Assembly (NCBI GenBank): GCA_025350055.1
Contig: JANXYK010000029.1
Coordinates: 1-64,000 of the forward strand
Direction: 5' to 3'
Length of the DNA stretch: 64,000 nucleotides
DNA from: Gammaproteobacteria bacterium
GTDB taxonomy: Bacteria; Pseudomonadota; Gammaproteobacteria; Steroidobacterales; Steroidobacteraceae
Below the pieces are notes generated by a model. The model was not told the origin of the DNA. It was given only the letters and a program-made list of their open reading frames with translations, and did no database searches. This document shows positions 20,398 through 44,282 of this stretch, one piece after another. The position numbers and the translations under genes were made by a program. Every line of letters starts with the position of its first letter. Position 1 is the stretch's first letter.

Positions 20398-21786
20398 ATG
20401 TTGCAACATTTTCGCCGCGTGGCGCGCACGCTCGTGCCCGCGCTCCTGCTGGCTGCCTCCAGCGGCATTGCCGTCGCGGCTGGCGCCACGCATGACTATT
20501 CAAAGGACAGCGCCCGCAGCAGCCCGGCCTGGGTGCACGATGGCGTGGTCTACGAGATCTTTCCGCGCGACTTCTCGGCGCGCGGTGACTTTGCGGGTGT
20601 CACCGTGCAGCTCGATCGCCTGCAGCAGCTGGGCGTCAGCATCCTGTGGCTGATGCCGATCCATCCACTCGGCAAGCTCAAATCCAAGGGTACGCTCGGC
20701 AGTCCGTATGCGGTGCGTGATTACTACGGCATCAACAGCGACTACGGCAGTGCCGACGACCTGCATCGCCTTTTCAATGAGGCGCACAAGCGTGGCCTCA
20801 AGGTGATCATCGACATCGTCGCCAACCACACGGCCTGGGATTCGAACCTGATGGCGCATCCGGCGTATTACACCCACGATGCCAAGGGCAACATCATCCC
20901 GCCCGACCCCGACTGGACCGACGTCGCCGACCTGAATTACGACAATCCCGAGCTGCGCCAGTACATGACCGGCATGCTGGTGCACTGGCTCAAGGATTTC
21001 GATCTCGACGGCTTCCGCTGCGACTACGCCGCGGGCGTGCCCACTGATTTCTGGGAACCCGCACGCGCGGCGCTCACGAAGACCAAGCCCGATATCTTCA
21101 TGCTCGCGGAAGCCGACTCGCCCGAACTCCTGGTGAAGGCTTTCGATGCGGACTACGCCTGGTCGTTCTATCACGCACTCTCTGATGTGCTGCAGAACGG
21201 CAAGCCCGCATCTGCAATTATCGATAACTGGCGCGCGAGCGCCGCGCAGTACCCGCACGGCGCGCTGCGCCTGCGCTTCACGGACAATCACGACCAGCGC
21301 CGCGCCATCGCGCGCTTCGGCGAGGCGGCGACGCTCGCAGCCAATGCACTGATGTTCACGCTCGATGGTGTGCCGCTGCTCTACCAGGGCATGGAAGTGG
21401 GCGACACCGCGGAATCCACCGCGCCCGCGCTGTTCGAGAAGCTGCCGGTGTTCTGGCAGGGCGATGCGATACGACCGCAGTATCCGCCGTTCTTTCACGA
21501 CCTCATCGCGCTGCGCAAGGCGCACAGCGCGTTGCGTGGTGGCGAAGTGCAATGGCTGCACAACAGCGACGAAAATCGCGTGCTCACGTACGCGCGCCGC
21601 GACGCGAGTGAGTCGCTGGTGATCGCGATCAACCTGTCGACGGCGCCGTTTGCCGGCGTTGTCATGGCCGGCGAGGGGCGCTACCAAGACATCACGCCGG
21701 GCCACGCAGCCACGGCTGCCAGCCTGCCCTCCGTGGCGCTGGGCGCCTGGGAATACCGTGTGTATTGGCGCATCACGACGCAATGA
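20398..21786 (+). CDS. Exported GH13 alpha-amylase-family enzyme
   Basis: A 462-residue alpha-glucan hydrolase with a signal peptide (hydrophobic run to about residue 27, AVAAGA cleavage region), so probably periplasmic. GH13 catalytic residues are D209 in DGFRCDYAAG, E238 in FMLAEADSPE and D299 in FTDNHDQRR. VYEIFPRDFSARGDF near residue 51 opens the barrel, and a short C-terminal beta domain follows. GGGGATCAG precedes the ATG. It overlaps the DUF6445 gene by ATGA and precedes TonB receptor 1, which suggests that it cleaves maltodextrins brought in by that receptor. Exact product pattern is unknown. Confidence 0.9.
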   Translation: MLQHFRRVARTLVPALLLAASSGIAVAAGATHDYSKDSARSSPAWVHDGVVYEIFPRDFSARGDFAGVTVQLDRLQQLGVSILWLMPIHPLGKLKSKGTLGSPYAVRDYYGINSDYGSADDLHRLFNEAHKRGLKVIIDIVANHTAWDSNLMAHPAYYTHDAKGNIIPPDPDWTDVADLNYDNPELRQYMTGMLVHWLKDFDLDGFRCDYAAGVPTDFWEPARAALTKTKPDIFMLAEADSPELLVKAFDADYAWSFYHALSDVLQNGKPASAIIDNWRASAAQYPHGALRLRFTDNHDQRRAIARFGEAATLAANALMFTLDGVPLLYQGMEVGDTAESTAPALFEKLPVFWQGDAIRPQYPPFFHDLIALRKAHSALRGGEVQWLHNSDENRVLTYARRDASESLVIAINLSTAPFAGVVMAGEGRYQDITPGHAATAASLPSVALGAWEYRVYWRITTQ

Positions 21787-22457
21787 CCGCGGTGCAGCTG
21801 CACTACGTCGGCCGCGAGCGCCAGCCAGTGCTCGTGATCGACGACTTCGTGCCCGATCCGCGCGCGCTGATCGACGAGGCGGCGCAACTTCAATACACCA
21901 CGATCGGTCCGCACTACCCGGGCATACGAGCCGGCGTGCCAGCCGCCCGTGTGCGCGCCTTCCTGGCGCCGATCGTCGACCTGCTGTGCAGCAGCTTCGA
22001 GTGTGGTTCGCAGTTGCAGGTGCTCGAGGCCTATTACTCGCTGGTGACCACGCGGCCCGGCGAGTTGCGACCGATCCAGCGGCTGCCGCACTTCGATGGG
22101 CTGGAGCGCGAGCGCCTGGCGCTGCTGCACTTCATCAGCAGCGATCGCAGCAGCGGCACGGCCTTCTACCGGCACCGATCGACGGGCTTCGAGAGTGTGG
22201 ATGCAGTGCGTTATCCGCAGTTCAGCGCGGCATTGACAGGCGAAGCGGCCAAGCACGGACTGCCGGACCCGGCCTATATCAGCGGCGATACACCGATGTA
22301 CGAGCAGATCGCGAGCTTCGATGGCGCCTTCAATCGCGCGCTGGTGTACCGCGGCCACGTACTGCACTGCGCCCTGCTGCCGGGGGGGCTTTCTTACTCA
22401 TCCGACCCGCGTGTAGGGCGGCTGACGGTGAACACTTTCCTGACAGGCGTGGCATGA
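21783..22457 (+). CDS. DUF6445-type protein, predicted Fe(II)/2-oxoglutarate oxygenase fold (1)
   Basis: A 224-residue cytoplasmic protein whose start overlaps the GH13 stop. I recognise it as the family often found beside TonB receptors and halogenase-like genes. It shows a double-stranded beta-helix pattern: H103-x-D105 in LPHFDG, the strand ALLHFISS followed by SSGTAFYRH, a distal H195 in RGHVLHCALL and R213 in GRLTVNTFL. The second copy at 43548 has H117-x-D119, H212 and R230; the His-to-Arg distance is 18 in both. This layout matches Fe(II)/2-oxoglutarate oxygenases, so an oxygenase role is inferred, not shown. The substrate is unknown. It belongs to a unit with the exported GH13 enzyme and lies upstream of receptor 1. 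Confidence 0.7.
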   Translation: MTAVQLHYVGRERQPVLVIDDFVPDPRALIDEAAQLQYTTIGPHYPGIRAGVPAARVRAFLAPIVDLLCSSFECGSQLQVLEAYYSLVTTRPGELRPIQRLPHFDGLERERLALLHFISSDRSSGTAFYRHRSTGFESVDAVRYPQFSAALTGEAAKHGLPDPAYISGDTPMYEQIASFDGAFNRALVYRGHVLHCALLPGGLSYSSDPRVGRLTVNTFLTGVA

Positions 22458-22485
22458 GAGCTGTGTCCGGCGCGCAACAGGCTGG

Positions 22486-22638: not shown

Positions 22639-25494
22639 GTGAAGACCTTCAAGACGGCCTATTGCACGCAGCCGGCCACGCGCCGCGCCCTGTTTGCGGT
22701 GAGTTCCACGGCCACGGGCTGTGCAGTGCTGCTGATGGCAGCGACCAGCGCGGCACGCGCGGCCGATCAGTCCGCGGCAGCGGCAGAATCGAGCGCGCCC
22801 ATCGAAGAGATTGTCGTAACCGGTATCCGCAAGAGCATCGAGGATTCCATCGCGGCTAAGAAGAACAGTTCTTCAATTGTCGAAGTGGTGTCCGCCGAAG
22901 ACATCGGCAAGTTGCCCGACAGCTCGATTGCCGAGTCGATCGCGCGCCTGCCGGGCCTCGCTGCGCAGCGCACCGCCGGCCGTGCACAGACGCTGTCGAT
23001 CCGCGGCCTCGGTCCCGACTACACCGTCACGACCTTCAACGGTCGCGAGCAGCCCTCGACCAGCGACAGCCGTTCAGTCGAATTCGATCAATACCCGTCC
23101 GAGCTCGTGAGCCAGGTCAAGATTTTCAAGACGCCAGACGCGGGCATGTCATACCAGGGCATTGCCGGCACGGCCGACATCGAAACCGTGAAGCCGCTGG
23201 CCTATGGTCACCGTGCGCGTTCGATCTCCTACAAGTATGAGAAGGATGGACAGAAGGCCAACGTGCCGTTGCAGTCGAATGCCGGCAACCGCGCCAGCGC
23301 GACCTACATCGATCAGTTCATGGATAACAAGGTAGGCGTGGCCTTGGGCGTGGCTTACAACAAGTCGCCGTACCAGGAGCAGGCGCGCGAATCCTGGGGC
23401 TACGCCGATGGTCCCGGCGGCACCAAGATCGTGGGCGGCACCAAGGACGGCATCCAGTCATCATTTTTTCAGCGCACGGCGTTCCTGGGCGTGTTCGAAT
23501 TCCGGCCCAATGACCGGCTGCACTCGACCCTCGATGGCTACCATTCCAATTTCAAGGAAGTTCAGAACATCCGGCGCATGGAATATCCGCTGCAGTGGGG
23601 CAGCGGTACGCTCACCAATCCAGGGCCGGTTGTCGATAACCGCATCACCTCGGGCACCTACACCAATGTGCCGTTCGTCGTCATCGAAAACTACAACAAC
23701 GAGACTCACGCCAAGGTGGATGCCTATGGCCTGCAGACCGATTTCAAGCTGACCGACGACTGGACTCTGAACAACGACATCAGCTACTCGAAGGCCCACC
23801 GCAACAAACTGCGACTGGAATCAACGGCGGGCGATGGCTCATTGGACGCCGGTTCGCCGCTGGCCCCGACCACGCAGACCAACACGTTCACGACCGACGA
23901 AAACGGTGTCACGATACCAACCATCACCGGCGACTACAGCAGCTACAACACGACCTTCCTGGCCGATCCGGGCGGCTGGGCTGGTGGGAATGTCACGCAC
24001 AGCTCCCGCGCCGGTTTCTGGGACGACCAGGCCGTCGACGACGAGATCAAGTCCATCAAGCTGGCTGTGAGCAGCAAATTCGAGACCCGATTCCTGAGTG
24101 GCATGTCGATTGGCGTCAATTACGCGGATCGCAGCAAGACCAAGTACCGCCAGCAGAATGCGCTGTATATGCCGGGCGATCCCACTGCCGGGCCTTACCT
24201 GTTGGCTGTGCCCGATGCCTACCGCCACGGGGTACTGGACACCAGCTTCTTTGGCAATCCCAACGGGATGATCAACTACGACGCGCTGGCGATGTTCCAC
24301 GGCGGATTCTTCAACGTGATCGATGCCCGCCAGGACCCTCACGCCGATGGCGGTACGTGGTTTGCCGAAATTACCGCCAGCTGGCGCGTGACTGAAAAAC
24401 TGACGACGCCCTTTATCAAGTTTGACATCGACAGCCACCTCGGCGGCCACGCGCTGACGGGAAACTTTGGCGTGCAGGCGCAGCGGGCGGAACAGACCGC
24501 GTACCTGAACGCGATCAATGGCACGCAGGTGTCGCAGGTGACGGACGGCGCCACTTACACCGAAGTGCTGCCCAGCATGAACCTCAGTCTCGCCGTGGCA
24601 GAGGACATGAAGCTGCGCTTCGCCGCGGCGACCACTGTGTCGCGGCCGCGCATGGACGATATGGCCGGCGGCGCGAGCTACTCGGTCACCAACGACACCA
24701 CGCTGCCGATGTCGTACAACGGCCAGCTGTTCTATTGGCAGCGCAACAGCGGCGGCAATCCGCGGTTGAAGCCCTGGAAAGCCAATGCCTTTGACCTGTC
24801 GCTGGAAAGGTACTTTTCCAACAACAAGGGCTATGTCTCCGCTTCGGTGTACTACAAGCAGTTGAAGCGCTTCCTGTTCCAGGATGTGCAGATTGTCAGT
24901 TTTGACGGCGCGCTGCTGCCTGATCAGGTCAATCCCGGTGATCCGACGGTTGCCTACACCCTGGCCAACGACCATCGCCTGGGCACGGCGGCTACGTTCA
25001 TCAATGGACGCGGTGGCTACATCAGGGGCATGGAACTGACGGGCTCCTTCCCCGGCTCCATGCTCGCCAGCGCACTGAACGGATTCGGCTTGATTGTCAG
25101 CGCGTCCTGGAGCGCTTCGTCGGTCAGTCCGCACGGTTCATCCATGCCGATTCCCGGCCTGTCACCGCGGGTCATCAACTCCACCCTGTTCTTCGAGAAG
25201 TACGGCTTCTCGGCCCGGATCAGCAGTCGCTATCGCGGCGGCTTCCAGGGCCAGGTGCCGACCTTCGACGGGTCGATCCAGGACCGCAACGTGAAAGATG
25301 AATCTCTGCTCGACGCGCAGGTCGGGTACGAGTTCCGGGACGGTGCGATGAAGGGGCTGGCCCTGAACCTCGCGGGTACCAACCTGACCGATACCCCCTT
25401 CGTGCAGTGGAACGTGGGTGATCCCCAGAATCTCAACCAGAAGTACTCAAAGTACGGCGCTGTCTACACGGCCACGATCAGCTACAAGTTCTAG
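22639..25494 (+). CDS. TonB-dependent receptor 1 (Xanthomonas/Caulobacter maltodextrin-type)
   Basis: A 951-residue outer-membrane transporter. The GTG start has AAGGAG about 9 bases upstream, then a signal peptide (to about residue 42, SAARAAD). The TonB box is EEIVVTGIRKSIEDSIAAKK, the typical opening of the TonB-Xanth-Caul receptor subfamily that includes Caulobacter MalA. The plug shows SIAESIARLPGLAAQR and SIRGLGPDYTVTTFNGREQP; the C-terminus ends TATISYKF, with the aromatic terminal residue of outer-membrane beta-barrels. The mature part seems free of cysteine, unlike receptors 2 and 3. With an exported GH13 enzyme upstream and a shared operator, maltodextrin is the most likely cargo. 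A strong stem-loop follows its stop and separates it from the halogenase gene. Confidence 0.94.
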   Translation: MKTFKTAYCTQPATRRALFAVSSTATGCAVLLMAATSAARAADQSAAAAESSAPIEEIVVTGIRKSIEDSIAAKKNSSSIVEVVSAEDIGKLPDSSIAESIARLPGLAAQRTAGRAQTLSIRGLGPDYTVTTFNGREQPSTSDSRSVEFDQYPSELVSQVKIFKTPDAGMSYQGIAGTADIETVKPLAYGHRARSISYKYEKDGQKANVPLQSNAGNRASATYIDQFMDNKVGVALGVAYNKSPYQEQARESWGYADGPGGTKIVGGTKDGIQSSFFQRTAFLGVFEFRPNDRLHSTLDGYHSNFKEVQNIRRMEYPLQWGSGTLTNPGPVVDNRITSGTYTNVPFVVIENYNNETHAKVDAYGLQTDFKLTDDWTLNNDISYSKAHRNKLRLESTAGDGSLDAGSPLAPTTQTNTFTTDENGVTIPTITGDYSSYNTTFLADPGGWAGGNVTHSSRAGFWDDQAVDDEIKSIKLAVSSKFETRFLSGMSIGVNYADRSKTKYRQQNALYMPGDPTAGPYLLAVPDAYRHGVLDTSFFGNPNGMINYDALAMFHGGFFNVIDARQDPHADGGTWFAEITASWRVTEKLTTPFIKFDIDSHLGGHALTGNFGVQAQRAEQTAYLNAINGTQVSQVTDGATYTEVLPSMNLSLAVAEDMKLRFAAATTVSRPRMDDMAGGASYSVTNDTTLPMSYNGQLFYWQRNSGGNPRLKPWKANAFDLSLERYFSNNKGYVSASVYYKQLKRFLFQDVQIVSFDGALLPDQVNPGDPTVAYTLANDHRLGTAATFINGRGGYIRGMELTGSFPGSMLASALNGFGLIVSASWSASSVSPHGSSMPIPGLSPRVINSTLFFEKYGFSARISSRYRGGFQGQVPTFDGSIQDRNVKDESLLDAQVGYEFRDGAMKGLALNLAGTNLTDTPFVQWNVGDPQNLNQKYSKYGAVYTATISYKF

Positions 25495-25565: not shown

Positions 25566-27098
25566 ATGCCTGGCGTCGAGATCAAATCGGTAGTGATCGT
25601 GGGTGGCGGCACCGCGGGCTGGATGTGCGCCGCCGCGCTTGCCAAGGTGATGGGGCCGCGCCTGTCGATCACCGTAGTGGAATCGGATGAGATCGGCATC
25701 GTCGGCGTCGGCGAGGCGACGATTCCCGCGATCAACCTGTTCAACCAGATGCTGCGTCTCGACGAAGACGACTTCCTGCGCAACACGCACGGCACCTTCA
25801 AGCTGGGCATCGAGTTCGCCAACTGGTATGAACGCGGCCATTCCTACATGCATTCCTTTGGCACGGTCGGCAAGGACCTGGCCTACATCCCGTTCCACCA
25901 CTACTGGCTGCATGAACACCTGTTGGGGCGCGGTGGCTCGCTGTGGGACTACAGCCTCGACTACCAGGCCGCGCGCCAGAACCGCTTCACGCGCATGGCG
26001 CAGATCGAGGGCACGCCGCTCCCGGGTATCACTTATGCCTTTCATTTCGATGCCTCGCTGTATGCGGCCTACCTGCGCCGCTACGCGCAGCAACAGGGCG
26101 TACGCCGCGTCGAGGGCATGGTGGTCGAGGTGCTGCTCGATCCCGCCAGTGGCGACGTGCAAAAGCTCCGTCTGAAAGACGGCCGCGAGCTCAGCGGCGA
26201 GCTGTATGTGGATTGCTCCGGTTTCAGGGGCCTCTTGATCGAGCAGGCGCTGACGACCGGCTACGAGGACTGGACGCGCTGGCTGCCTTGCGATCGGGCG
26301 CTGGCCGTGCCCAGCGAGCGTGTCAGTCCGCTGACGCCCTATACGCGCTCCACCGCGCAGGATGCGGGCTGGCAGTGGCGCATCCCCTTGCAGCATCGCA
26401 CCGGTAACGGCCACGTGTATTCATCGGCGCACATGAGCGATGAGCAGGCGCACGAGCGGCTGCTGCAGAACCTCGATTCGAAGCCGCTCGCCGAGGCGCG
26501 GCCGATCCGCTTCACGACCGGGCGGCGGCGGCTGCTGTGGAACCGGAACGTCGTGAGCATGGGGCTGGCCAGCGGTTTCCTCGAGCCGCTGGAATCGACG
26601 GCGATTCACCTGATCCAGATGACGATCCACCGCCTGGTGCTGCTGTTCCCCGATCGCGGCGACAACTCGCGCCGGCGCGATGAGTTCAACCAGAGCTCTG
26701 CGGCCGAATACGAGTACCTGCGCGATTTCATCATCCTGCATTACTACGCCAACAACCGCGTGGGCGAGCCTTTCTGGGACGACTGCCGCCACATGTCGGT
26801 GCCCGATTCACTGACCCATAAGATCGAGCTGTTCCGCGAAACCGGTGGCATCTTCGTAGCGGCGCAGGATCTGTTCCAGTTGCCCAGCTGGCTGCAGGTG
26901 ATGTGGGGCCAGGGCATCAAGCCGCGCGCCGCGCATCCCTTCGTCGAGACGGTGTCGCCGCAGGATCGCGCCGACTACCTCAAGGGCATCCGTGACCTGA
27001 TGGCGGATGCGGCGCGCAAGCTCCCGCTGCATGAGGAGTTCATCAATGGCCATTGCCGCTCGAGCGCGGCCGTGACGCCGGCGGCGCGCGCGGGCTGA
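25566..27098 (+). CDS. Flavin-dependent (tryptophan-type) halogenase-like protein 1
   Basis: A 510-residue FAD protein. GGGTAGWM at residues 13-20 is the flavin-binding motif, WQWRIP at 269-274 is the halogenase WxWxIP signature, and the catalytic pair is K79 in GTFKLGIEF and E343 in FLEPLES, equivalent to PrnA K79/E346. All four copies in the window keep these residues. It is near the BrvH and Xanthomonas halogenases that act on free indoles in vitro; the natural substrate is unknown. It begins 10 bp after the terminator behind receptor 1 and converges with halogenase 2. A partner flavin reductase is not visible. Halogenation of a nutrient-derived or signalling aromatic is inference. Confidence 0.9.
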   Translation: MPGVEIKSVVIVGGGTAGWMCAAALAKVMGPRLSITVVESDEIGIVGVGEATIPAINLFNQMLRLDEDDFLRNTHGTFKLGIEFANWYERGHSYMHSFGTVGKDLAYIPFHHYWLHEHLLGRGGSLWDYSLDYQAARQNRFTRMAQIEGTPLPGITYAFHFDASLYAAYLRRYAQQQGVRRVEGMVVEVLLDPASGDVQKLRLKDGRELSGELYVDCSGFRGLLIEQALTTGYEDWTRWLPCDRALAVPSERVSPLTPYTRSTAQDAGWQWRIPLQHRTGNGHVYSSAHMSDEQAHERLLQNLDSKPLAEARPIRFTTGRRRLLWNRNVVSMGLASGFLEPLESTAIHLIQMTIHRLVLLFPDRGDNSRRRDEFNQSSAAEYEYLRDFIILHYYANNRVGEPFWDDCRHMSVPDSLTHKIELFRETGGIFVAAQDLFQLPSWLQVMWGQGIKPRAAHPFVETVSPQDRADYLKGIRDLMADAARKLPLHEEFINGHCRSSAAVTPAARAG

Positions 27099-27149: not shown

Positions 27150-28679
27150 TCAACTGTCGGCGAGTGCGCCAGCGAGGCGCAGGAACTCCCGGTGCGGCGA
27201 GCCCTCGTGCGCGATTGCGGCAATGTCGCCGCGCAGCCGGCGCGTCAGTTCCTTCAGATCATCGAGTGCCAGCAGGTTGGTGAGCGGATCCCAGGAGCGC
27301 GCCTCGACGCCGAAGTTCGCGTACAGGCACACCCAGCTCGGATCGAAAAAACTCTCGGATGGATATTGCACCAGGTGCCCACGTGCGCGGTACAACGCCA
27401 GCTTGTTGAGCAGGGTGTCGGGCAGCGGCATCTCGCGGCAGTAGCGCCATAGTTCGCCACCAGTGCGCGCGTTGGCCGAATAATGCAGGATGATGAAATC
27501 GCGCACCCGCTCGAATTCCTGGATCGACAATCGGTTGTATTCACCCGCGAGCTCGGGCGCCAGGTCGGTGCCGGGCCAGAAATGCAGCAGCTTGTCGATG
27601 CCCATCTGGATCAGCGAGATGCTGGTCGATTCCAGCGGCTCGAGGAAGCCGCCCGAAAGCCCGATGGCCACGCAGTTCTTCTCCCAGAACTTGCGCACGT
27701 GGCCAGCGCGAAAGCGCAGCATGTTGGGCGCGGCCAGCGCTTCGCCCTCGAGCTCGCTGCGCAACGCGGTCAGCGCCGCATCGTCGCAGATGTGATCGGA
27801 ACTGTAGACGTAGCCATTGCCCACGCGATTCTGCAGCGGAATGCGCCAGGTCCAGCCTGCGTCCATGGCGCGTGAGCGCGTGTAGGGCGCGAGCACATGC
27901 GCGTCGGCCGGCGCGCAGGGCAGGGCGATGGCGCGATCGCACATCAGCCAGTGGCGCCAGTCCTCGTAGCCCGCCTTGAGCGCGCCATCGATCAGCAGTC
28001 GATTGAAACCCGAACAGTCGATGAACAGCTGCCCACCGACCGACTCGCTATTGTCGAGCAACAGCTGCTCGATGTGCCCGCGCTCGGGGTGCAGCTTCAC
28101 CTGCTGCAGGCGCGCATCGATGCGCCGCACGCCGCGCGCCTCGCTGAACTGGCGCAACAATTGCGCGAAGCGGCCGGCGTCGAAATGCACCGCCCAGTCG
28201 AAGTGCTCGAAATCGCCGCGCGGCTCGCGCGGTTGCAGCAGTACGCGCCCGGCCCGGCACAGCTGCGTGCCCAGCGAATAATCATCCAGCGGCGCAGTTT
28301 CACCCGCGGCGCGCAACCGGTTCCAGATGCTGTGGAAGGCCACGGGGCCGGCCTGGATGCCGTAACGCCCGAAGGGATGGATGAAGCTGTAACCCTCGTG
28401 CCGCCAGCCGTCGAATTCGATGCCGAGCTTGATTGTGCCGTTGGTGGCGCGCATGACTTCGTAAGGATCCAGCTGCAGCGACTCGAAGTAGTTCTTGATC
28501 GCCGGCACTGTGGCCTCGCCCACGCCTATGGTGCCGATCTGCGAAGACTCGACCAGCGTGACCTTGACGCCCAGGCGCCCCAGGCGGTGCAGCAGCGAGG
28601 CCGCGGTCATCCAGCCGGCAGTGCCGCCGCCGAGGATGACGACCTCGGTGACAGGCGGGTGCGGCGTGTTCGGGTTCAT
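27150..28679 (-). CDS. Flavin-dependent halogenase-like protein 2
   Basis: A 509-residue member of the same family on the minus strand. GGGTAGWM is at residues 17-24, the catalytic lysine is K84 in GTIKLGIEF, the WTWRIPLQNR signature is present, and FLEPLES keeps the acidic residue. It is convergent with halogenase 1 and divergent from a TPR/2-oxoglutarate-oxygenase gene 37 bp away. A TAGAAT hexamer (minus strand, 28686-28691) lies 6 bp from the ATG at 28679 and there is no Shine-Dalgarno sequence, so the message may be leaderless. It is more diverged from copies 1, 3 and 4 in the middle region, which suggests a different substrate. Confidence 0.88.
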   Translation of the reverse strand: MNPNTPHPPVTEVVILGGGTAGWMTAASLLHRLGRLGVKVTLVESSQIGTIGVGEATVPAIKNYFESLQLDPYEVMRATNGTIKLGIEFDGWRHEGYSFIHPFGRYGIQAGPVAFHSIWNRLRAAGETAPLDDYSLGTQLCRAGRVLLQPREPRGDFEHFDWAVHFDAGRFAQLLRQFSEARGVRRIDARLQQVKLHPERGHIEQLLLDNSESVGGQLFIDCSGFNRLLIDGALKAGYEDWRHWLMCDRAIALPCAPADAHVLAPYTRSRAMDAGWTWRIPLQNRVGNGYVYSSDHICDDAALTALRSELEGEALAAPNMLRFRAGHVRKFWEKNCVAIGLSGGFLEPLESTSISLIQMGIDKLLHFWPGTDLAPELAGEYNRLSIQEFERVRDFIILHYSANARTGGELWRYCREMPLPDTLLNKLALYRARGHLVQYPSESFFDPSWVCLYANFGVEARSWDPLTNLLALDDLKELTRRLRGDIAAIAHEGSPHREFLRLAGALADS

Positions 28680-34529: not shown

Positions 34530-36796
34530 GACTCACGACAACGCTGGGCACGCTCGCCTTGCTGGTCAGCGCGGCGGCAGTGCAGGGCGCCGGGCAAACG
34601 GCCGGGCGGACGCTCATCGAGCTGCCGCACGCACGCTTCGCCATCGGCGATGATCCGGCGCGCGCGCAGCCCGGCTTCGATGACAGCCAGTGGGCCGAAC
34701 TCTCGACGCTGGCGAATTACGAGAAGCAGGGTTTCCCCGACTACGATGGCTATTCCTGGTATCGCATCCATGTGCGCATTCCTGCCAGCCTGAAGGCCAG
34801 CGTGCGCTGGCCGCAGCGCCTGCATATGTATCTCTCGAGCATCGATGATGTCGATCAGACCTACCTCAATGGCGTGAAGATCGGCGAGACCGGTCAGTTT
34901 CCGGATGATCCGCAGGGCTATGCGACCCGCTGGAATGCTTTGCGCGATTACTACGTGGATGTCGCCACCGGCCTGGTGCACTGGGACGCCGACAATGTGA
35001 TCGCCGTGCGGGTCTATGACGGCTCGGGCGGCGGCGGTTTCTATCGCGACATGCCGACCCTCGGCATGGCCGAGATCGTCGATGGCCTGCAGCTCGATAC
35101 CGCGCGCTCGCGCATCGAGTATCAGCCGACCAGCTTTAGCGCGCGGCTGAAATGGGTCAACACCTTTCCGGTGGCGCTCACCGGCAAGATGGACTACGAC
35201 GTATACGATGCGGTTGCCGGCAAGGTGCAGCGCCATGCCAGCGCGCCATTCAGCGTAGGTGCGAACGCCGAGAGCGAGCTTGCCGTCGAGGCGCCGCAAC
35301 GTGCCGGTATCGAGCTGCGCTTTCGCTTCACCGAGACCCGCACTGGCGCTGCGACCGAGACCGTTTACCACGCACCTTACCTGCTGACGCCCGCCGAATC
35401 GCCGCGGCCACAGATCAACGGCGCCCTGGTGTTGGGCGCGCGCGCGGGCTCGCCGGTCTACTATCGCATCGCGGCCACTGGCAAGGCGCCGCTGGCGTAT
35501 GCCGTGGGCGCCCTTCCCGCAGGGCTCAGCTTCGATGCAGACGCTGGCGTCATCAGCGGCAAGGCGCCCGCAGCAGGCGAGTACCGCCTCGCACTCGAAG
35601 TGCGCAATGCGCTCGGCAAGGCGCAGCGCACCTTGACGCTGCGTGTGGGCGATCAGCTCGCGCTCACGCCGCCGATGGGCTGGAACAGCTGGAATGCCTA
35701 CGGCCTCGCGGTCGATGCCGATAAAGTCCGCGCGGTGGCCGATGCGATGATCGCTACGGGGCTCGCCGCACACGGCTGGACCTACATCAACATCGACGAT
35801 GGCTGGGAGTCTGCCGCGCGCGCTGCCGATGGCACGATCAGCAGCAACAGCAAATTCCCCGACATGCCCGGGCTCAGCAGCTATCTGCACGAGCGCGGCC
35901 TGCGCTTCGGCATCTATTCATCGCCGGGGCCGCTCACCTGCGGCCGCTTCCTAGGCTCCATCGATCACGAACGCCAGGACGCCGACACTTACGCGAAGTG
36001 GGGCATCGACTATCTGAAATACGACCTGTGCTCCTACGAAACGCTTATGCCCAAGCAACCTGCGCTCGCCGATCACCAGGCGCCTTACCGGCTGATGGGC
36101 GCGGCGCTTGCCGCGCAGCCGCGCGACATTGTGTTCAGCCTCTGCCAGTACGGCAATGCGGAGGTCTGGAAGTGGGGCGGCGAGGTGCGTGGCAACTCCT
36201 GGCGCACCACAGGCGACATCGAGGACAGCTGGCATAGCACGAAGGAGATCATCGATTCGCAGCACCTGTCGGCGCCCTACACGAAGCCCGGCCACTGGAA
36301 CGACCCGGACATGCTGGTGGTGGGCGAGGTGGGTTGGGGCGGGGCACTGCATCCCTCGCGCCTGACGCCCGACGAGCAGTACAGCCACATCAGCCTGTGG
36401 TCGTTGCTGGCCGCGCCCTTGCTGCTGGGCAATGAACTCACGCGCCTCGATGCCTTCACGCGCAACCTGCTGGTGAACGACGAAGTCATCGCCGTCGACC
36501 AGGATCCACGCGGGCTCGCGGCACGGCGCGCCTGGAACCAGGACGACTGGCAGATCTGGGTACGCGAACTCGCTGACGGGCGCCACGCCGTGGGCATCTT
36601 CAACTTCGGCGAGCAGTTTCGCACGCTCAAGATCGCCGGCCTGGTGCCCGAGCTCGGCGCCGGTGCAGCGCTGCGCGATCTGTGGCGGCAACGCCCGCTG
36701 GCGCCGCTCACGGATAACTCCAACGTGGGCGTGCCTGCGCATGGCGTGCTACTGGTGGCGGTGGGAATCGCCGGCGCGGCATCCGACGGCAAGTAG
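34526..36796 (+). CDS. Exported alpha-galactosidase (GH27) with N-terminal sugar-binding and Ig-like domains
   Basis: A 756-residue protein with a signal peptide ([20 protein letters not shown]). Domain order: beta-sandwich of the glycan-binding type at about residues 28-190 ([30 protein letters not shown]), an intervening beta domain to about 290, a putative Ig-like module ([19 protein letters not shown]) at about 310-375, then GH27 from [13 protein letters not shown] near 382. The nucleophile is D500 in [10 protein letters not shown]. The acid/base is D564 in [10 protein letters not shown], aligned with human alpha-galactosidase A D231. The start overlaps the halogenase 3 stop. It probably releases terminal alpha-galactose in the periplasm for the receptor 2 system. 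GH27 also includes beta-L-arabinopyranosidase and isomaltodextranase, which are possible but less likely. Confidence 0.9.
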
Positions 36797-37066: not shown

Positions 37067-39790
37067 GTGAAACATCATCAAGAAAACGGTAAGGGACTGC
37101 ACGAGAGTCGTGTGATCAATGTGCAACCTATGCCTGTCGGGAAAGCAACAGCGCCGCTGCGCGTTCAGACGCGCTGGCGCCGTGTGGGCGCACCTGGCAG
37201 CATCGCGGCCGCTGTAGCCGCCATATTGTACGGCGCGGCCGGAACCTCGGCCTACGCGGCTGACCAAGGCGCCGTCGCGACATCCGACGCTGGCGCTGGA
37301 GTGCCCGAAATGCCACTGGAAGAGGTGGTGGTCACCGGTACCACTGGAAAGAACCGCACCATCCTCACTTCATCCTCCGACATCATCGCCATTGACGAGT
37401 CAGCGCTGGAGCAGAAGGCGCCGCGCGGCACGGACGAAGTGCTGCAGCTGATCCCCGGCATGTTTGTTGAAGCCACCGCGGGCGCGGTGTCCAACAACTA
37501 CTCCGTGCGCGGACTACCGGGTGGCGGCCAACAATTCGTGAACTGGATGGAAGATGGCCTGATCATTGCCTACCCTGGTACCGGCAACCCCGATGAACTG
37601 TTCTCGTACGACCTCAACGTGCTCAAGGCCGAGGCGGTACTGGGCGGCAACTCCAACGTGCTGCTGCCCAATGCTGCCGGCGCGAGCGTTAACTGGATCA
37701 CGCGCAAGCCGAATTTTGCCAAAGAGGAATTCATTGCACGAGTGTCTGCGACCACATACGCGGATCGGCGCGCGGATTTATACTACTCCGCGCCGCTGAG
37801 CTCGGATCTCGCCTTCAACGTGGGTGGATATCTTGAAAGCAATCGCGGCACACGCGATGCAGGCATTACCTATTCCTCGTGGCACCTCAAAGCCATGCTC
37901 GAGAAGAAATTCGACAACGGTGCGACGCTGACGTTGAGTGCGAAAGTAGGCGACCAGCACGACCCCTACTACGCTGACATGCCCTACACTTTGAGCGGCG
38001 GATCGGTCGGCAACTTGCCGGGCCTTGATGGCTTGAAGGACAACATTGCGGGACCTGCGTTCGGCACCATCGGCATCCCGGGTTCCTGTGTCCTTGGGTG
38101 CTATCGCACGTTCAGCTTGAACAATGGCATTGGCGCTGACACCCACCAGGTGCGCTTGGATTTTGACTTGCCCCTCAGCAATGGCTGGGACCTGTTTGCC
38201 AAGGCGCACTATCTGACCTACCACTGGAATTTCAATGGTGTATTTCCAGGCTCGGGTATCGGCAATGCGGGTTTGGATACGGCCAACAATTATTTGAACG
38301 GCACCAGCTCGCCAATCTCCGGCTTGCTCACTGCCGGGGCCGCCGCCTACCCAGGAGCCACCTTCGGGTTTCGCGACCTGACGACGGGCGCCATCCTGGG
38401 CGCTGGCAATTTGACGGCACTCAACGCACTGAACGGTAATGGCTTGATGCAGCAGACCTGGCTCAATCGCCAGGAGCTGAGCGGGCAGGATTTTGCCAGC
38501 AATTTTGGCGCCCGCTGGGAAACAGGTGACGAGAATCTGAAGAACTCCCTCACCGTCGGTGGCATGTACTACCACGATACGCGTGACAACAATCAGAGTT
38601 CGGTAGCGCATGTCATCAACGGCGTGACTTCGCAGTCGCACATTTACGACGTGGTGGCGCTCAACGGCAGCGGGCTGGTGGTCGGGTCGCTCACTGACCA
38701 CGGGTTGGTGCACTACGGAGACTGGGGCACGGGCATCAATCGGGATGACACCACTTCGATCTCGGCCTATTTCAACGACGAGCTGACCCTCCACGACAAA
38801 TTGCACATTGACTTTGGTCTGCGCGCCGAACGTTACAAGGACACTCAGTCCTCCGGGCAATCGGTGGGTGGTGTCTGTCCCATCAACACCTTTACTTGCA
38901 ATGGCGTAAGCACTGGCCAGTTTTATGGGGTTACCGGTGTGCCGTGGGGCAGCATTTTCAATGGAGCCTATGACGCGCATAGTGCCGAACACGGCAAGGT
39001 TGCCCAGAGTCTCGGCGCCAACTACACGGTCGCCCGCAACCTCGCGGTCTATGGGCAATACGAGTTTGGGTTCCAGATGAATGGGGGCGGAGACCAGGCC
39101 GGTTCGAGGCCCACCAGCCTGACGTTGTACGAAGTGGGCGTGCGCTACAGTAGTGGCTTGGGCACTGGCTCGATGGGCCTGTTTCGCACCAAGTTGGGCG
39201 ATCAGAGCAATGGTTGTTTCGACCCTGCCAATCCAACCTTCAATTGCAATTTGACGTACGACGTTGTCAGCACGGGTCTTGAGTACGACGTCACCTTGAA
39301 GCCCTTGCACAACATGGGGATCAACTCATGGGAAGTCGAATTGCAGGGTGTGTTCCAGAAGCCGAACGTGTCTTCTGCCAGTGTCAGGGAATCCCTCAGT
39401 GGCGTGTTGCAAAGCCTGAGCAGTTATCCTTCCTTCGACGGCAACGTCGACCCCCGCACGCCCAAGACACTGCTCACGATGGATCAGGCGTATGTGTTTC
39501 CCAATAACCTGGGTCGGGTGTATGCACGCTATGCCTATCAAGGGGAGTTCTACAACGATATTGGCAATGGCGTGAAGATCCCCGGCTATGGCCGGTGGGA
39601 TGCAGGCGTGGTGTGGAACGCGACCAAGCGCATCAACTTCAACCTGTCGGTGCAAAACCTCAGCAATACGCTGGGGATCACGGAAGGCAATCCCCGCCAA
39701 GGATTGACGCAGCAGGTGGTCGACGGCTCGTTCTACGCGCGCGCCATCGCCGGACGCAATTTCCTGCTGAGCGCGACCATTACGCTCTAG
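37067..39790 (+). CDS. TonB-dependent receptor 3
   Basis: A 907-residue outer-membrane receptor with an extended basic N-terminal leader (about 45 residues) before the hydrophobic segment SIAAAVAAILYGAAGTSAYA. The TonB box is LEEVVVTGTTGKN; the plug shows TDEVLQLIPGMFVEATAGA and NYSVRGLPGGGQ. The barrel ends NFLLSATITL. Three cysteine pairs lie in loops: GIPGSCVLGCYRTF, CPINTFTCNG and GCFDPANPTFNCN. It is the first gene of a co-directional run that reaches the GH32 gene at 53738 (six-hairpin protein, halogenase 4, DUF6445, GH65, GH37, GH31, MFS, GH32). Those enzymes suggest trehalose, kojibiose-type or other alpha-glucosides as cargo. Confidence 0.92.
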   Translation: MKHHQENGKGLHESRVINVQPMPVGKATAPLRVQTRWRRVGAPGSIAAAVAAILYGAAGTSAYAADQGAVATSDAGAGVPEMPLEEVVVTGTTGKNRTILTSSSDIIAIDESALEQKAPRGTDEVLQLIPGMFVEATAGAVSNNYSVRGLPGGGQQFVNWMEDGLIIAYPGTGNPDELFSYDLNVLKAEAVLGGNSNVLLPNAAGASVNWITRKPNFAKEEFIARVSATTYADRRADLYYSAPLSSDLAFNVGGYLESNRGTRDAGITYSSWHLKAMLEKKFDNGATLTLSAKVGDQHDPYYADMPYTLSGGSVGNLPGLDGLKDNIAGPAFGTIGIPGSCVLGCYRTFSLNNGIGADTHQVRLDFDLPLSNGWDLFAKAHYLTYHWNFNGVFPGSGIGNAGLDTANNYLNGTSSPISGLLTAGAAAYPGATFGFRDLTTGAILGAGNLTALNALNGNGLMQQTWLNRQELSGQDFASNFGARWETGDENLKNSLTVGGMYYHDTRDNNQSSVAHVINGVTSQSHIYDVVALNGSGLVVGSLTDHGLVHYGDWGTGINRDDTTSISAYFNDELTLHDKLHIDFGLRAERYKDTQSSGQSVGGVCPINTFTCNGVSTGQFYGVTGVPWGSIFNGAYDAHSAEHGKVAQSLGANYTVARNLAVYGQYEFGFQMNGGGDQAGSRPTSLTLYEVGVRYSSGLGTGSMGLFRTKLGDQSNGCFDPANPTFNCNLTYDVVSTGLEYDVTLKPLHNMGINSWEVELQGVFQKPNVSSASVRESLSGVLQSLSSYPSFDGNVDPRTPKTLLTMDQAYVFPNNLGRVYARYAYQGEFYNDIGNGVKIPGYGRWDAGVVWNATKRINFNLSVQNLSNTLGITEGNPRQGLTQQVVDGSFYARAIAGRNFLLSATITL

Positions 39791-39802
39791 GGTGACATGA
39801 TC

Positions 39803-39837
39803 CAGGGGAGCCGGGCGACCGCCGCCCGGCCCCCTTG
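39803..39837 (+). terminator. Stem-loop after receptor 3 without a T tract
   Basis: GCCGGGCG (39810-39817) pairs with CGCCCGGC (39823-39830), and GGGG (39805-39808) with CCCC (39831-39834) across a bulged A, with further pairs at the base. No T run follows, so it may slow or end transcription with other factors, or protect the receptor mRNA. It lies in the leader before the ATG at 39950. Confidence 0.55.
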
Positions 39838-39949
39838 GTGCCAACAGTCATCCCGTCCGCTGAGCATGCAGCGGCAGACCACGCGGGGCGGTGGTGGCGT
39901 ATGCTCCCGCGGCCATGGCATTGTTGGTACCAAAGGGATAGGCACGTCC

Positions 39950-42010
39950 ATGCGATCACTGATCCTGCGGCTTCCAGGTATTGTAAGCGCAGCGCTGCTC
40001 GCGATTGCGCCGCTGCAGGCGCACAGCGCACAGGACAGGCGCGAGGTGCTGTCGTTTGCTGTCGACGAAGGACTCAATCTCAATAGTTTCCTTCGTGCCG
40101 GCCCGGTCGCTGCACATCTGCTGTTGCGCTCTGGATCGGACCCGCGAATCCTGGTGGCTTTTCCAGCCGGTAACAGTGGCGTTGGCCTTTGGTTCGCGCA
40201 TGTCGAGGAGACCGCGACCTGGAAGATGGTCGGCAAACCCCGACCGTACAGCGCGCAGGACGGTCGAGGCAGGGCACTGCATGGCATCGTTGCGGACACG
40301 GCGATTCGCGCCAGCGCGTTGTCGATCAAGCAGGCCGTGCTGTCCAATGTCCGTGTGCTGCGCGACTACCAAGCCTTGGGTACCTTTCCGGCGCAAGTAG
40401 GTACCGAAGCGGTCGTAAGCGGTTCCACGGTGACGTGGGCACGGGACCGTCTCGACGGCGCGCCGGGCTATCGACTGAGCATCGAAGTGACTCACGGGAT
40501 CTTGCAGCACGGAGCATTCCACGCCGGCGGGGACGGAAATATTGGACTGCGAATCACGGCGCTGAGCGGCGAGGCGCCGTTGTCGCCCCTGGCCGGGCCG
40601 GATCTGCTCAATGGGCACGCGCGGCCCGACTTTGCCGCGCGCAACGCCCTCAGTTTCCTCAGCTATCGGGAGAAGTTCCTCGCCGGGTCCTGGCGGTTCA
40701 ACACCTACTTCGGCAGGGATACCCTGATGTCCGTACGTCTGCTGATGCCGGCCCTGAAGCCGGTGGCGGTGGAGGCGGGACTGGACGCAGTGCTCTCACG
40801 GCTGTCAGCGCTGGGACAGGTCGCCCACGAGGAAGATATCGGAGAATTTGCGATCCTCGATCATCTGCACGCCGAGGGTTCGAAGTCCGACGCGCCCACC
40901 TACAACTACAACATGATCGACGGCGACTATATGCTTGCGCCGGTGGCTGGAGCCTGGCTGCTCGACGACGCGCGCGGGCGCCGCCGAGCGCAGGCGTTCC
41001 TGGCGCGATGGGATAGCCGCCATGGGGAGGCGCCGCGAACCATGGGCGCTCATCTGGTCAGCAATCTGCGACGGGTCGTGGACAGCGCTGCGGCCTTTGC
41101 CGACGCGCCGCTGGCAATCCATCTAATCGGCCTGAATAAGGGGTTCATGGCTGGCCAGTGGCGCGACAGCGACGAAGGCCTTGGGCGCGGCCGTTACGCC
41201 TACGATGTCAACGCGGTATTCGTTCCCGCAGCGCTTGCAGTGGCGAGCCGCCTCTACGCCAGCGGCTTGCTCGATCCCTATCTTAGTTCCGGGGATCGCG
41301 CGCTGCTCGCCCGTGCAACAGCCATGGCGGCCATCTGGCGTGCCAAAGCCGCGCCGCTGTTTACCGTCGAAGTGGCCAATGACCCGGCCCGTCAGCAGAT
41401 CAAGAGCTATGCCACGGCGCTGGGTGTGGTTCCCGATGCGGCATTGCGCTCCCTTGGCAACGAGCCGGTGCGCTTTCACGCCCTGTCGTTGGACGCGCAG
41501 GGCGCACAGGTACCCGTACTCCATTCGGATGAGGGTTTTGAACTCTTGTTCGGCGATCCGAGCCCGGCGGAACTCGATCAGGCGATCAGCGCCATGTTGC
41601 GGCTGTTCCCTGCCGGCTTGCTGACCGATGTGGGTATCGTAGTGGCCAATCCGGTGTTTGCGACGACCGCGGTGCAAGCGCGCTTCAGCAGCAACGCGTA
41701 TCACGGCACCGTCATCTGGTCCTGGCAGCAAGCGGTGCTCGCGGCGGGATTGGCGCGCCAGATGCAGCGCCGCGATTTGCCGGACGCAACACGGCAGCAT
41801 TTGCTTGCCGCGCAGAGGCAATTGTGGCGGGTCATCGAGGCGAGCCGAACTGTGCGCAATTCGGAGCTCTGGTCCTGGGCTTACGTCGATGGCAAGTTCC
41901 GGGTAGCGCCATTTGGCGCCAGCCAGGCAGATGTCGATGAATCCAACGCAGCGCAGTTGTGGAGTACGGTGTATTTGGGGATCGAACCCCCTGTCGGGTA
42001 TGCGCGCTAG
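39950..42010 (+). CDS. Exported six-hairpin-type glycosidase-like protein
   Basis: A 686-residue protein. The ATG at 39950 is chosen because it has AAAGGGATAGG upstream and starts a signal peptide (MRSLILRLPGIVSAALLAIA, cleavage near AHSAQ); the frame is open back to 39797 but that includes a stem-loop. The N-terminal half is beta-rich. From about residue 215 an alpha-rich region follows with SWRFNTYFGRDTLMSVRLLM, HEEDIGEF and YNYNMIDGDYMLAPV. The FGRDT motif resembles glycogen-debranching and other (alpha/alpha)6 glycosidases. I cannot assign a GH family; the likely catalytic acids are in FGRDT and HEED. It sits between receptor 3 and halogenase 4, suggesting periplasmic glucoside processing. 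Confidence 0.65.
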   Translation: MRSLILRLPGIVSAALLAIAPLQAHSAQDRREVLSFAVDEGLNLNSFLRAGPVAAHLLLRSGSDPRILVAFPAGNSGVGLWFAHVEETATWKMVGKPRPYSAQDGRGRALHGIVADTAIRASALSIKQAVLSNVRVLRDYQALGTFPAQVGTEAVVSGSTVTWARDRLDGAPGYRLSIEVTHGILQHGAFHAGGDGNIGLRITALSGEAPLSPLAGPDLLNGHARPDFAARNALSFLSYREKFLAGSWRFNTYFGRDTLMSVRLLMPALKPVAVEAGLDAVLSRLSALGQVAHEEDIGEFAILDHLHAEGSKSDAPTYNYNMIDGDYMLAPVAGAWLLDDARGRRRAQAFLARWDSRHGEAPRTMGAHLVSNLRRVVDSAAAFADAPLAIHLIGLNKGFMAGQWRDSDEGLGRGRYAYDVNAVFVPAALAVASRLYASGLLDPYLSSGDRALLARATAMAAIWRAKAAPLFTVEVANDPARQQIKSYATALGVVPDAALRSLGNEPVRFHALSLDAQGAQVPVLHSDEGFELLFGDPSPAELDQAISAMLRLFPAGLLTDVGIVVANPVFATTAVQARFSSNAYHGTVIWSWQQAVLAAGLARQMQRRDLPDATRQHLLAAQRQLWRVIEASRTVRNSELWSWAYVDGKFRVAPFGASQADVDESNAAQLWSTVYLGIEPPVGYAR

Positions 42011-42055: not shown

Positions 42056-43543
42056 ATGAACGACAGGCGAGTCGAAAAAATCGTAATTGTCGGCGGCGGT
42101 ACTGCGGGATGGATGACTGCTGCGGCTCTGGCAAAGGCCGTAGACCGGCAGCAGTGCAGTATTGTGCTCATCGAGTCCGAAGACATCGGAACGATCGGCG
42201 TCGGCGAGGCGACGATTCCCACGATTCACTGGTTCAACTCGATCGTGGGCATCAATGAGAAGGAATTCATGCGCGCGACCCGCGCGACCTTCAAGCTGGG
42301 CATCGAGTTCAGGGACTGGGCGCAGCCCGACTACCGGTATTTTCATCCGTTCGGCCGCTATGGATTGCCTGGTGACGGCGTGGCCTTCCAGCACCGTTGG
42401 ATCAAGGCGCAGCTGGAAGGGCTCGGCGGCGATGTCGAGGACTATTCGCTCAACAGCGTGGCGGCGCGTAACGGGAAGTTTTCGTTTCCTGTCGACGATT
42501 CGCGCTCGCCGCACTCGACGCTTGGCTATGCCTACCACTTCGATGCCGCGCTGTACGCCAAATTCCTGCGCACGCGCTCCGAATCGCAGGGCGTCGTTCG
42601 CCATGAAGGCATCGTGCTGCGGATCGATCAGCATCCCGAAACCGGGTTTGTCACGGCCTTACATACCAACAAGGGCGAAACCCTCAGTGGTGACCTGTTT
42701 ATTGACTGCACCGGCATCCGCGCCCTGCTCATCGAGGGAGTTTTGCAGTCAGGATTTGACGACTGGTCGCATTGGTTGCCCTGCGATCGGGCACAAGCCG
42801 TGCCCAGTGAACGTGTCGGCCCACCTGCACCCTACACTCGTTCCACGGCCCGCGCGGCGGGTTGGCAGTGGCGCATTCCCCTGCAACATCGCACGGGCAA
42901 CGGCTACGTCTACTGCAGCCAGTTCATCAGTGACGACGAAGCCGCGTCGGTGCTGCTGCAAAGCCTCGACGCACCGGCGCTGGCCGATCCGAAGCCCATC
43001 CGCTTCAAGGCGGGCCGCCGACGGGTTGCATGGAACAAGAATGTCATCGCAATCGGACTGTCGGGCGGTTTCCTCGAACCGCTGGAATCGACCAGTATTC
43101 ATCTGATCCAGAGTGGCATCGCCAAACTGCTGTCGCTGTTTCCGGATCGCAACTGTGATCCCTATGTGGTCGAGCAATACAACCGCGTGGTTGCCGAAGA
43201 GCTTTCGGGTATCAAGGATTTTCTGGCGCTGCACTACCACTCCACGCGGGAGCGGACCGAGCCGCTGTGGACTTACTGTCGCGCCATGTCCCTGCCCGAG
43301 ACGCTGCGCTATCGGGAGGAGCACTTCGCGCGTTCCGGCCGTATCGTGTTATCCACGGACGAGCTGTTCAAGGAGGCGAGCTGGTTTGCCGTGCTGCTGG
43401 GGCAAGGTCACAAGCCACGGGACTATAATCCGCTGATCGATTCGATCCAGTCGACGAACAACTTCAGCCACTTGAGGCGCATCCGGGAGCGCATTCAGGA
43501 GACTGCAGCCCGTATGCCCGATCATCTTGCGTTCCTGGCCTGA
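42056..43543 (+). CDS. Flavin-dependent halogenase-like protein 4
   Basis: A 495-residue family member. GGGTAGWM is at residues 13-20, the catalytic lysine is K80 in [19 protein letters not shown] is retained and FLEPLES keeps the acid. FIDCTGIR replaces the more usual FIDCSGFR. It is followed 4 bp later by the second DUF6445 gene, giving an immediate halogenase/putative-oxygenase pair in one transcript. The rest of the transcript encodes exported glycosidases. The role is unknown; the enzyme signature is complete. Confidence 0.9.
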   Translation: MNDRRVEKIVIVGGGTAGWMTAAALAKAVDRQQCSIVLIESEDIGTIGVGEATIPTIHWFNSIVGINEKEFMRATRATFKLGIEFRDWAQPDYRYFHPFGRYGLPGDGVAFQHRWIKAQLEGLGGDVEDYSLNSVAARNGKFSFPVDDSRSPHSTLGYAYHFDAALYAKFLRTRSESQGVVRHEGIVLRIDQHPETGFVTALHTNKGETLSGDLFIDCTGIRALLIEGVLQSGFDDWSHWLPCDRAQAVPSERVGPPAPYTRSTARAAGWQWRIPLQHRTGNGYVYCSQFISDDEAASVLLQSLDAPALADPKPIRFKAGRRRVAWNKNVIAIGLSGGFLEPLESTSIHLIQSGIAKLLSLFPDRNCDPYVVEQYNRVVAEELSGIKDFLALHYHSTRERTEPLWTYCRAMSLPETLRYREEHFARSGRIVLSTDELFKEASWFAVLLGQGHKPRDYNPLIDSIQSTNNFSHLRRIRERIQETAARMPDHLAFLA

Positions 43544-43547
43544 AGCC

Positions 43548-44282
43548 ATGCGCAGCGAGCCGGCCGCGACGCGCGTCTTCAATCTGCAAGCCGCGGTGGT
43601 GGTCGAGAAGTTCGACGAGCGGCACTGCTGCCTGATCATTGACGATGCAGTGCTCGAGCCGGAGAAGCTGGCGCAGTATGCCCTGGAGCGGCGCGGTGAG
43701 TTCAGCGCCGTGAATGCCAACTACTACCCAGGTATCCAGTTGCCAGCGCCGCGCGAGTTGAGCGCGGGTCTGGTTGACTACTTCCTGTGGCGGGTACGGC
43801 ATCACTTTGACGCCCGACGCGGGGTGGAAGCGCTGTGCCGCTACGCGATGGTCACGCAGTCACCGCAGGCGCTGCAGCCATTGCAGTGGATTTGTCATCG
43901 CGACGACAGCGGCCTGGACGCCAGGCACAGCATGCAGGCATCGGTTCTCTACCTGTTCCGCGACCAAGCCCTGGGGGGCACGAACTTCTATGCGCCGACC
44001 CGCCCCCAAGCAGAGATCGACGCACTGTTCGTGGCTGCGCGGCAGCAATCCGCCGCAGCATTTGCTGCCAGGTACGGCATCGAGGCGGGGTACATCAGCA
44101 CGGGGAACGAGTACTTCAGGCTGCTTGGCAACGTCGCAGCCAAGTGGAACCGCCTGATTTTTTACGACGGCGGCATGCTGCACTCAAGTGCTATCACGGC
44201 CCCGGAGCGGTTGAGTGACGATCCGCTGCGTGGCCGCTTGACACTCAACGGATTCTTTACCAGCCGACGGAACCTCAAATGA
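43548..44282 (+). CDS. DUF6445-type protein, predicted Fe(II)/2-oxoglutarate oxygenase fold (2)
   Basis: A 244-residue protein starting 4 bp after the halogenase 4 stop and overlapping the GH65 start by ATGA. It shows H117-x-D119 in ICHRDDSG, the strand SVLYLFRD followed by LGGTNFYAP, H212 in GGMLHSSAI and R230 in GRLTLNGFF. The GGTNFY after the second strand is typical of prolyl-hydroxylase-like oxygenases. The first copy at 21783 has the same residues at nearly the same spacing despite low overall identity, which points to selection on a metal site. Cytoplasmic, no signal peptide. An Fe(II)/2-oxoglutarate oxygenase activity is inferred; the substrate may be shared with halogenase 4. Confidence 0.72.
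   Translation: MRSEPAATRVFNLQAAVVVEKFDERHCCLIIDDAVLEPEKLAQYALERRGEFSAVNANYYPGIQLPAPRELSAGLVDYFLWRVRHHFDARRGVEALCRYAMVTQSPQALQPLQWICHRDDSGLDARHSMQASVLYLFRDQALGGTNFYAPTRPQAEIDALFVAARQQSAAAFAARYGIEAGYISTGNEYFRLLGNVAAKWNRLIFYDGGMLHSSAITAPERLSDDPLRGRLTLNGFFTSRRNLK

Follow-up and report, generated by a model that had tools for sequence, protein, structure and literature searches.

The flavin halogenases BrvH from Brevundimonas and Xcc4156 from Xanthomonas do not halogenate free tryptophan; their active sites are open and peptides have been proposed as substrates (PMC5945002, PMC7336383). Both have been studied as single biocatalysts, and TonB is mentioned in neither structure paper (PMC5945002, PMC7336383), whereas the enzymes described here are known from their sequences and encoded beside TonB-dependent receptors (TBDTs). 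A second halogenase gene also adjoins that of BrvH (PMC5945002). A homologous phage enzyme is VirX1 (6qgm; 2.3e-54), and in Pelagibacter phage HTVC008M a 2OG oxygenase gene overlaps a halogenase gene; these phage systems differ in their identity of about 30% and in their position among virion genes, with no TBDT. Receptors of this kind are known from proteobacterial carbohydrate utilisation loci (CUT/PUL-like), where they occur together with glycoside hydrolases, MFS transporters and LacI regulators. A cytoplasmic enzyme that is encoded beside an outer-membrane protein and modifies this protein prior to export is known from the autotransporter heptosyltransferases of the AIDA-I/Aah type. They provide a precedent for the mode of action considered below, although they glycosylate rather than halogenate or hydroxylate their target and are unrelated to the enzymes found here.

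The window, that is the whole stretch of 64,000 nucleotides that was analysed, represents a sugar-catabolic island in which glycogen and maltodextrin genes (1–20 kb) are followed by three receptor modules and then by GH65, trehalase, GH31 and GH32 genes. It resembles the CUT/PUL-like loci in this respect, but additionally carries genes for halogenases, DUF6445, Cupin_8, SapC or TPR-2OG proteins in its modules or their relatives, which are out of keeping with sugar catabolism; no SusD-like protein was present among the scanned window proteins. Pfam scans confirmed the number and location of the three TBDTs, four flavin halogenases (all complete) and three oxygenase-like proteins reported in a preliminary description of this DNA, the latter being two DUF6445 proteins and one TPR-2OG oxygenase. 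All features given here are encoded on the plus strand except Hal2. Module 1 consists of DUF6445 copy 1, a 2OG-Fe(II) oxygenase-like protein (21786..22457, alternative start 21765; PF20043, 227 bits), TBDT1 (22639..25494), which has a plug domain, and the BrvH/Xcc4156-like Hal1 (25566..27098; PF04820, 632 bits; K79, E340 and WxWxIP). Hal2 (27150..28679; PF04820, 546 bits), the most divergent copy, has kept its catalytic residues; it lies between modules 1 and 2 and is encoded on the minus strand. Module 2 comprises the TPR-2OG oxygenase (28717..30147; N-terminal TPRs and a 2OG-FeII_Oxy_5 domain, PF13759, 1.1e-19), TBDT2 (30246..32888; PF00593 and PF07715), Hal3 (32994..34529, alternative start 33012; PF04820, 621 bits) and a GH27 alpha-galactosidase as its sugar enzyme (34526..36796; PF16499, 1.1e-52); the longest open reading frame of the latter begins at 34424, and its true start is presumably near 34526. 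In module 3, TBDT3 (37067..39790; PF00593 and PF07715) is followed by a 737-aa protein (39797..42010) that matched no Pfam or NCBIfam model and is probably a secreted glycoside hydrolase, by Hal4 (42056..43543; PF04820, 604 bits), by DUF6445 copy 2 (43548..44282; PF20043, 222 bits) and by GH65, GH37 trehalase and GH31 genes (44279..50816), of which GH65 and trehalase also occur in the related locus L034. Intergenic gaps in the window measure 4–105 bp, except for 270 bp upstream of TBDT3. As described before, 4 bp separate the stop of Hal4 (43543) from the ATG of DUF6445 copy 2 (43548).

The Trp_halogenase domain was detected in full length and above its cut-off of 21 in all four window copies (546–632 bits), and the FAD motif GxGxxG, the catalytic Lys, the catalytic Glu and WxWxIP are intact in each of them, as in BrvH and Xcc4156. 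For Hal1, the sole copy compared, the nearest solved structures were 9luq, then Xcc4156 (6y1w, 4e-150) and BrvH (6frl, 2e-139), with 469–542 bits for these three versus 264–294 bits for structures of the RebH/PrnA/Thal type. Hal1 is nearer to these enzymes than to free-tryptophan halogenases, and the window halogenases appear to be of the BrvH/Xcc4156 type. The 3.29 Mb genome encodes six full-length halogenases, four of them in the window; the two others (C69 and C46) likewise adjoin a TBDT.

Both DUF6445 genes of the genome are located in the window. The iron/2-oxoglutarate oxygenase hallmarks noted in the preliminary description are real: H102, D104, H194 and R212, which form the pattern HxD...H...R, are invariant across 52 diverse DUF6445 homologues. 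The AlphaFold model of DUF6445 copy 1 (pLDDT 95.8) has a DSBH fold, and its top structural matches are all 2OG oxygenases (Z 12–13.8). The leading matches include the protein hydroxylases OGFOD1, LH3, PPHD, which acts on EF-Tu, PHD2 and Tpa1. The model shares fold and facial triad with these prolyl/lysyl hydroxylases, but DUF6445 is only 12–15% identical to them and forms a separate Pfam family. The small-molecule oxygenases SnoN, AsqJ and HygX are interleaved with the protein hydroxylases at tied Z values. The assignment of DUF6445 to the 2OG-Fe(II) oxygenases, based on sequence and a confident model, is well supported, and the matches would fit a protein as well as a small molecule as its substrate. 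Literature searches, with subscription journals outside their scope, returned no paper mentioning DUF6445 and, for halogenase paired with TonB or SapC, no paper on this module.

The enrichment check proposed earlier was carried out on DUF6445 loci, 80 of them named and drawn from a search of 11.3 million genome contigs and the others taken from order- and phylum-level searches. Genes were called as open reading frames and assigned with home-made profiles seeded from Pfam-verified members; locus counts carry no phylogenetic correction, and TBDT detection may overlook divergent receptors. Among the 66 named loci whose flanks reach 5 kb or more in either direction, a set skewed by its search pattern to one DUF6445 branch, a halogenase was encoded within 5 kb in 52, a TBDT in 45, Cupin_8 in 39 and SapC in 27. 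The corresponding numbers for 35 independently collected loci were 25, 20, 12 and 13, and 17 of 22 genus-level DUF6445 groups had a halogenase in the locus. Weak DUF6445-like matches (about 30–58 bits; L067–L076), which served as a control, were accompanied by a TBDT once in ten loci and by a halogenase in none of the ten. Within 97 genomes of the order, all nine with a strict DUF6445 match encode a full-length halogenase, compared with 31 of the 97 overall (P ~1e-5, kinship ignored). Starting from the halogenases of the same order, a TBDT was found within 5 kb in 29 of 32 loci, with approximately 12.6% of this genome lying within 5 kb of a TBDT as background. Binomial figures assume that related genomes are independent and share the TBDT density of this genome, and they are indicative only. 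The pairing of halogenase, oxygenase and TBDT thus recurs in Alpha- and Gammaproteobacteria far beyond chance, and the lack of enrichment that would have refuted the preliminary description was not observed. DUF6445 also occurs with neither halogenase nor TBDT in the fetched flanks, e.g. in Acidobacteria.

An oxygenase of the families tested (Cupin_8, DUF6445, TPR-2OG and Asp_Arg_Hydrox) was found within 5 kb in only 13 of the 32 halogenase loci, and 16 of the 29 TBDT-linked halogenase loci contain none of them. The constant partner of the halogenase is therefore the receptor and not, as had been assumed, an oxygenase. DUF6445 is usually accompanied by a halogenase, which agrees with the suggested two-oxidation pathway; however, an obligatory pathway of this kind is only partly supported because the reverse does not hold, and halogenation needs no second oxidation by the tested families.

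The receptors concerned fall into three different classes, and the halogenase clades follow the type of receptor. TBDT1 belongs to the Xanthomonas/Caulobacter type, exceeding the curated cut-off of TIGR01782 (536 versus 310 bits), whereas TBDT2 and TBDT3 fall outside this family; for TBDT2 no NCBIfam receptor model scored above its cut-off. In the tree, Hal4 clusters with full support with the halogenases of L064 and L176 (Sphingomonas hankookensis), both from another bacterial class; each of these two adjoins the same 737-aa protein and a receptor of the TBDT3 type. The clade of Hal3 contains the halogenases of L242 and L091 (starred, 99), which both adjoin TBDT2-type receptors. Hal2 lies in no starred clade and is not clearly tied to one receptor. 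Near relatives of the receptor with no halogenase close by were found in 15 loci.

The TPR-2OG gene starts 37 bp from the start of the divergent Hal2 (28717 and 28679), as had been described, but the gene accompanies TBDT2 and Hal3 rather than Hal2, and this arrangement is kept in the orthologous loci L242 and L243. In 14 of 17 cases its homologues lie within 3.5 kb of a TBDT, and in nine of the 17 a TPR-sulfotransferase is present. TBDTs of another class in the genome of the window have TPR-sulfotransferases and an Asp/Asn hydroxylase as neighbours (L199–L201), and DUF6445 loci that lack a halogenase contain TBDT, TPR-sulfotransferase and Asp_Arg_Hydrox genes. The Cupin_8 proteins of these loci are JmjC-like. 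TPR-fused catalytic domains, JmjC-like Cupin_8 proteins and Asp/Asn hydroxylases typically act on polypeptides. Thus, the set of enzymes encoded beside the TBDTs, i.e. Cupin_8/JmjC-like proteins, the TPR-fused 2OG oxygenase, Asp_Arg_Hydrox and TPR-sulfotransferases, would fit peptide substrates, as would the protein hydroxylases among the best structural matches of DUF6445. By inspection, the window halogenases and the TPR-2OG oxygenase have no signal peptide and begin directly with the catalytic or TPR domain. For SapC, a confident model (pLDDT 90.5) matched no solved structure at E≤0.001.

In the explanation that we favour, and to which we would give nearly an even chance, enzymes dedicated to a receptor modify a polypeptide encoded in the module, most likely the TBDT before its export. 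Each receptor of the window would head a module that includes a halogenase of its own and, in many cases, at least one 2OG-Fe(II) oxygenase, and these cytoplasmic enzymes would act on the module polypeptide, above all the TBDT precursor, ahead of Sec export. The halogenase would halogenate an aromatic side chain using FADH2, O2 and halide, and the oxygenase would hydroxylate with Fe(II) and 2OG. Such a modification might tune ligand binding or hide the receptor from phages and bacteriocins. From the linkage of the enzymes to the receptor we infer that they act on it, and the protein nature of the substrate, the TBDT as target and the purpose are to be read in the same way. Directly observed are the association, the conservation of the modules, the intact catalytic residues, the oxygenase fold in the DUF6445 model and the scant space for precursor genes.

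In many loci the genes form a tight operon, most commonly TBDT>SapC>Cupin_8>halogenase>DUF6445 (Rheinheimera, Luteimonas, Lysobacter, Pseudoxanthomonas and Microbulbifer), whereas many Sphingomonas loci show the order Cupin_8<DUF6445>TBDT<Hal>Hal>Hal>Hal and a mobilizable Sphingomonas plasmid carries the three-gene unit TBDT>DUF6445>halogenase. Median gaps in the conserved operons are -1 bp (Hal–DUF6445), 5 bp (SapC–Cupin_8), 27 bp (Cupin_8–Hal) and 114 bp (TBDT–Hal). With gaps of mostly about 30 bp or less, and about 115 bp 3′ of the TBDT, the gap lengths alone leave little room for a RiPP precursor-peptide gene. The sugar enzymes differ from locus to locus and include GH13, GH3, GH16, GH27, GH31 and GH97, on plasmids also GH43, GH68 and GH9. 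GH27 homologues adjoin the orthologous modules of L242, L243 and L091. Since the CAZymes change while receptor and halogenase persist, a sugar is unlikely to be the common substrate.

The same loci bear on the proposal that halogenase and oxygenase tailor a small aromatic compound (an indole derivative, a phenolic linked to a glycan, or a signal) that enters the cell together with the sugar or is released once uptake has taken place. Import by a TBDT followed by modification through cytoplasmic enzymes would suit this idea, as would the small-molecule oxygenases among the structural matches of DUF6445, and BrvH and Xcc4156 accept free indoles in vitro (PMC5945002, PMC7336383). However, BrvH converts indole only very poorly, and the authors of that study question whether indole is its substrate (PMC5945002). 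Moreover, sugar specificity differs between the loci, the loci compared showed no genes for small-molecule biosynthesis in common, and the minimal loci L085, L093, L098 and L101 contain just TBDT, halogenase and sugar genes. We thus regard a small-molecule substrate as rather unlikely, and the aromatic compound linked to nutrient uptake that the preliminary description had suggested is disfavoured.

Arguments for a polypeptide do not single out the TBDT, and the modified protein could be another exported protein of the module, for instance SapC or a CAZyme that is secreted, or else a surface protein whose gene lies in another part of the genome. CAZymes are often co-encoded, and the 737-aa protein has stayed with TBDT3, Hal4 and DUF6445 across large distances (L034, L064 and L176; 55–69% identity). 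This appears improbable, given that CAZyme families are swapped or vanish where the TBDT stays and that SapC accompanies only part of the named DUF6445 loci. A mere co-location of oxygen- or iron-dependent housekeeping or antioxidant enzymes in sugar-uptake regulons, with no common substrate, could by itself yield the linkage of receptor and enzymes and would agree with the frequent LacI-type regulators in these loci and with the lack of a known substrate, but is quite improbable in view of the overlapping genes, the halogenase clades that track receptor type and the coupling of TBDT, DUF6445 and halogenase also on a mobilizable plasmid.

Several points speak against the TBDT as target, among them the receptors and DUF6445 genes that have no halogenase nearby and the small-molecule oxygenases among the matches of DUF6445. 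We know of no modified TBDT residue. For TIGR01782 receptors, a comparison of 70 halogenase-linked with 18 unlinked sequences revealed no aromatic alignment column that separates the two groups. The best separating columns were D380, R136, G174, G364, N366 and T297, none of them aromatic, and a single conserved aromatic target residue was rejected by this comparison, which is a weak one because linked and unlinked receptors differ partly by descent. A target site that varies between receptors would escape it, and such variation would be compatible with the several halogenases that occur in tandem beside one receptor. Tryptophan is not enriched in halogenase-linked TBDTs either (1.53% versus 1.46%).

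In its general form, the modification of the receptors would mean that dedicated cytoplasmic enzymes, encoded next to proteobacterial TBDTs, halogenate and hydroxylate these receptors post-translationally and sulfate those of other subfamilies, a generalization that we consider possible but less likely than not. BrvH-type halogenases are used as biocatalysts, and their natural substrate has been a question since 2018. With the receptor as the constant partner, and with DUF6445, TPR-2OG, TPR-sulfotransferase and Asp/Asn hydroxylase genes beside TBDTs, this question about orphan enzymes becomes one that proteomics of a single outer-membrane protein could address directly. If the proposal is correct, the orphan halogenases of the BrvH type, DUF6445, the receptor-linked Cupin_8 proteins and the TPR-sulfotransferases would all be accounted for by one receptor-tailoring system, and this system would add a new layer to outer-membrane biology with a bearing on sugar uptake and on recognition by phages and bacteriocins.

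The TPR-2OG oxygenase (TPR plus 2OG-FeII_Oxy_5) adjoins a TonB-dependent receptor across most of its homologous loci (14 of 17 in L242-L261), where a TPR-sulfotransferase gene often lies directly 3' of the homologue with a 4-bp overlap. In module 3, the 737-aa protein encoded at 39797-42010 of the window matched neither Pfam nor NCBIfam, and its conservation at 55-69% identity, alongside DUF6445, a halogenase and a TBDT3-type receptor, reaches from this genome as far as Sphingomonas. It is probably an undescribed glycoside hydrolase. An ORF within the sugar island (17579-18016) was judged by eye to encode a putative VapC-type PIN-domain protein.

In the Pelagibacter phage HTVC008M (L264, 63198-65157), a halogenase gene is overlapped by a 2OG-Fe(II) oxygenase gene; their neighbours are terminase and tail genes, and two further 2OG oxygenases are encoded close by. 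The mobilizable Sphingomonas sanguinis plasmid pNP2-R2 (L265) carries the minimal unit TBDT>DUF6445>halogenase together with GH43. Elsewhere, a single receptor is flanked by a tandem array of three to five different halogenases (L078, L079, L047, L107-L117 and L262). Two partial halogenase matches in this genome (C60:33340-33864 and C20:2288-2602) are N-terminally truncated fragments or assembly breaks. SapC (PF07277; for example L180:6689-7432) is a frequent operon partner of receptor and Cupin_8 genes. Its structure was predicted confidently (pLDDT 90.5), and no solved relative was found at E ≤ 0.001.

Receptors adjoining TPR-sulfotransferase or Asp/Asn hydroxylase genes share, in the few sequences compared, the plug segment VYLD[EQDN]QP[VIL]T. 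The comparison of linked loci covered three from this genome (L199 and L200 on contig C9, L201 on C18) and L023, L037 and L103. L199 has the variant IYLDNQSG. Most unlinked relatives, again few sequences, carry YIDGV or YIDDT at this position; the L197 receptor has VYLDEQAV, with no linked gene within the short stretch fetched. Because its Tyr lies beside acidic residues and Asp/Asn, the segment in these few sequences is a possible modification site.
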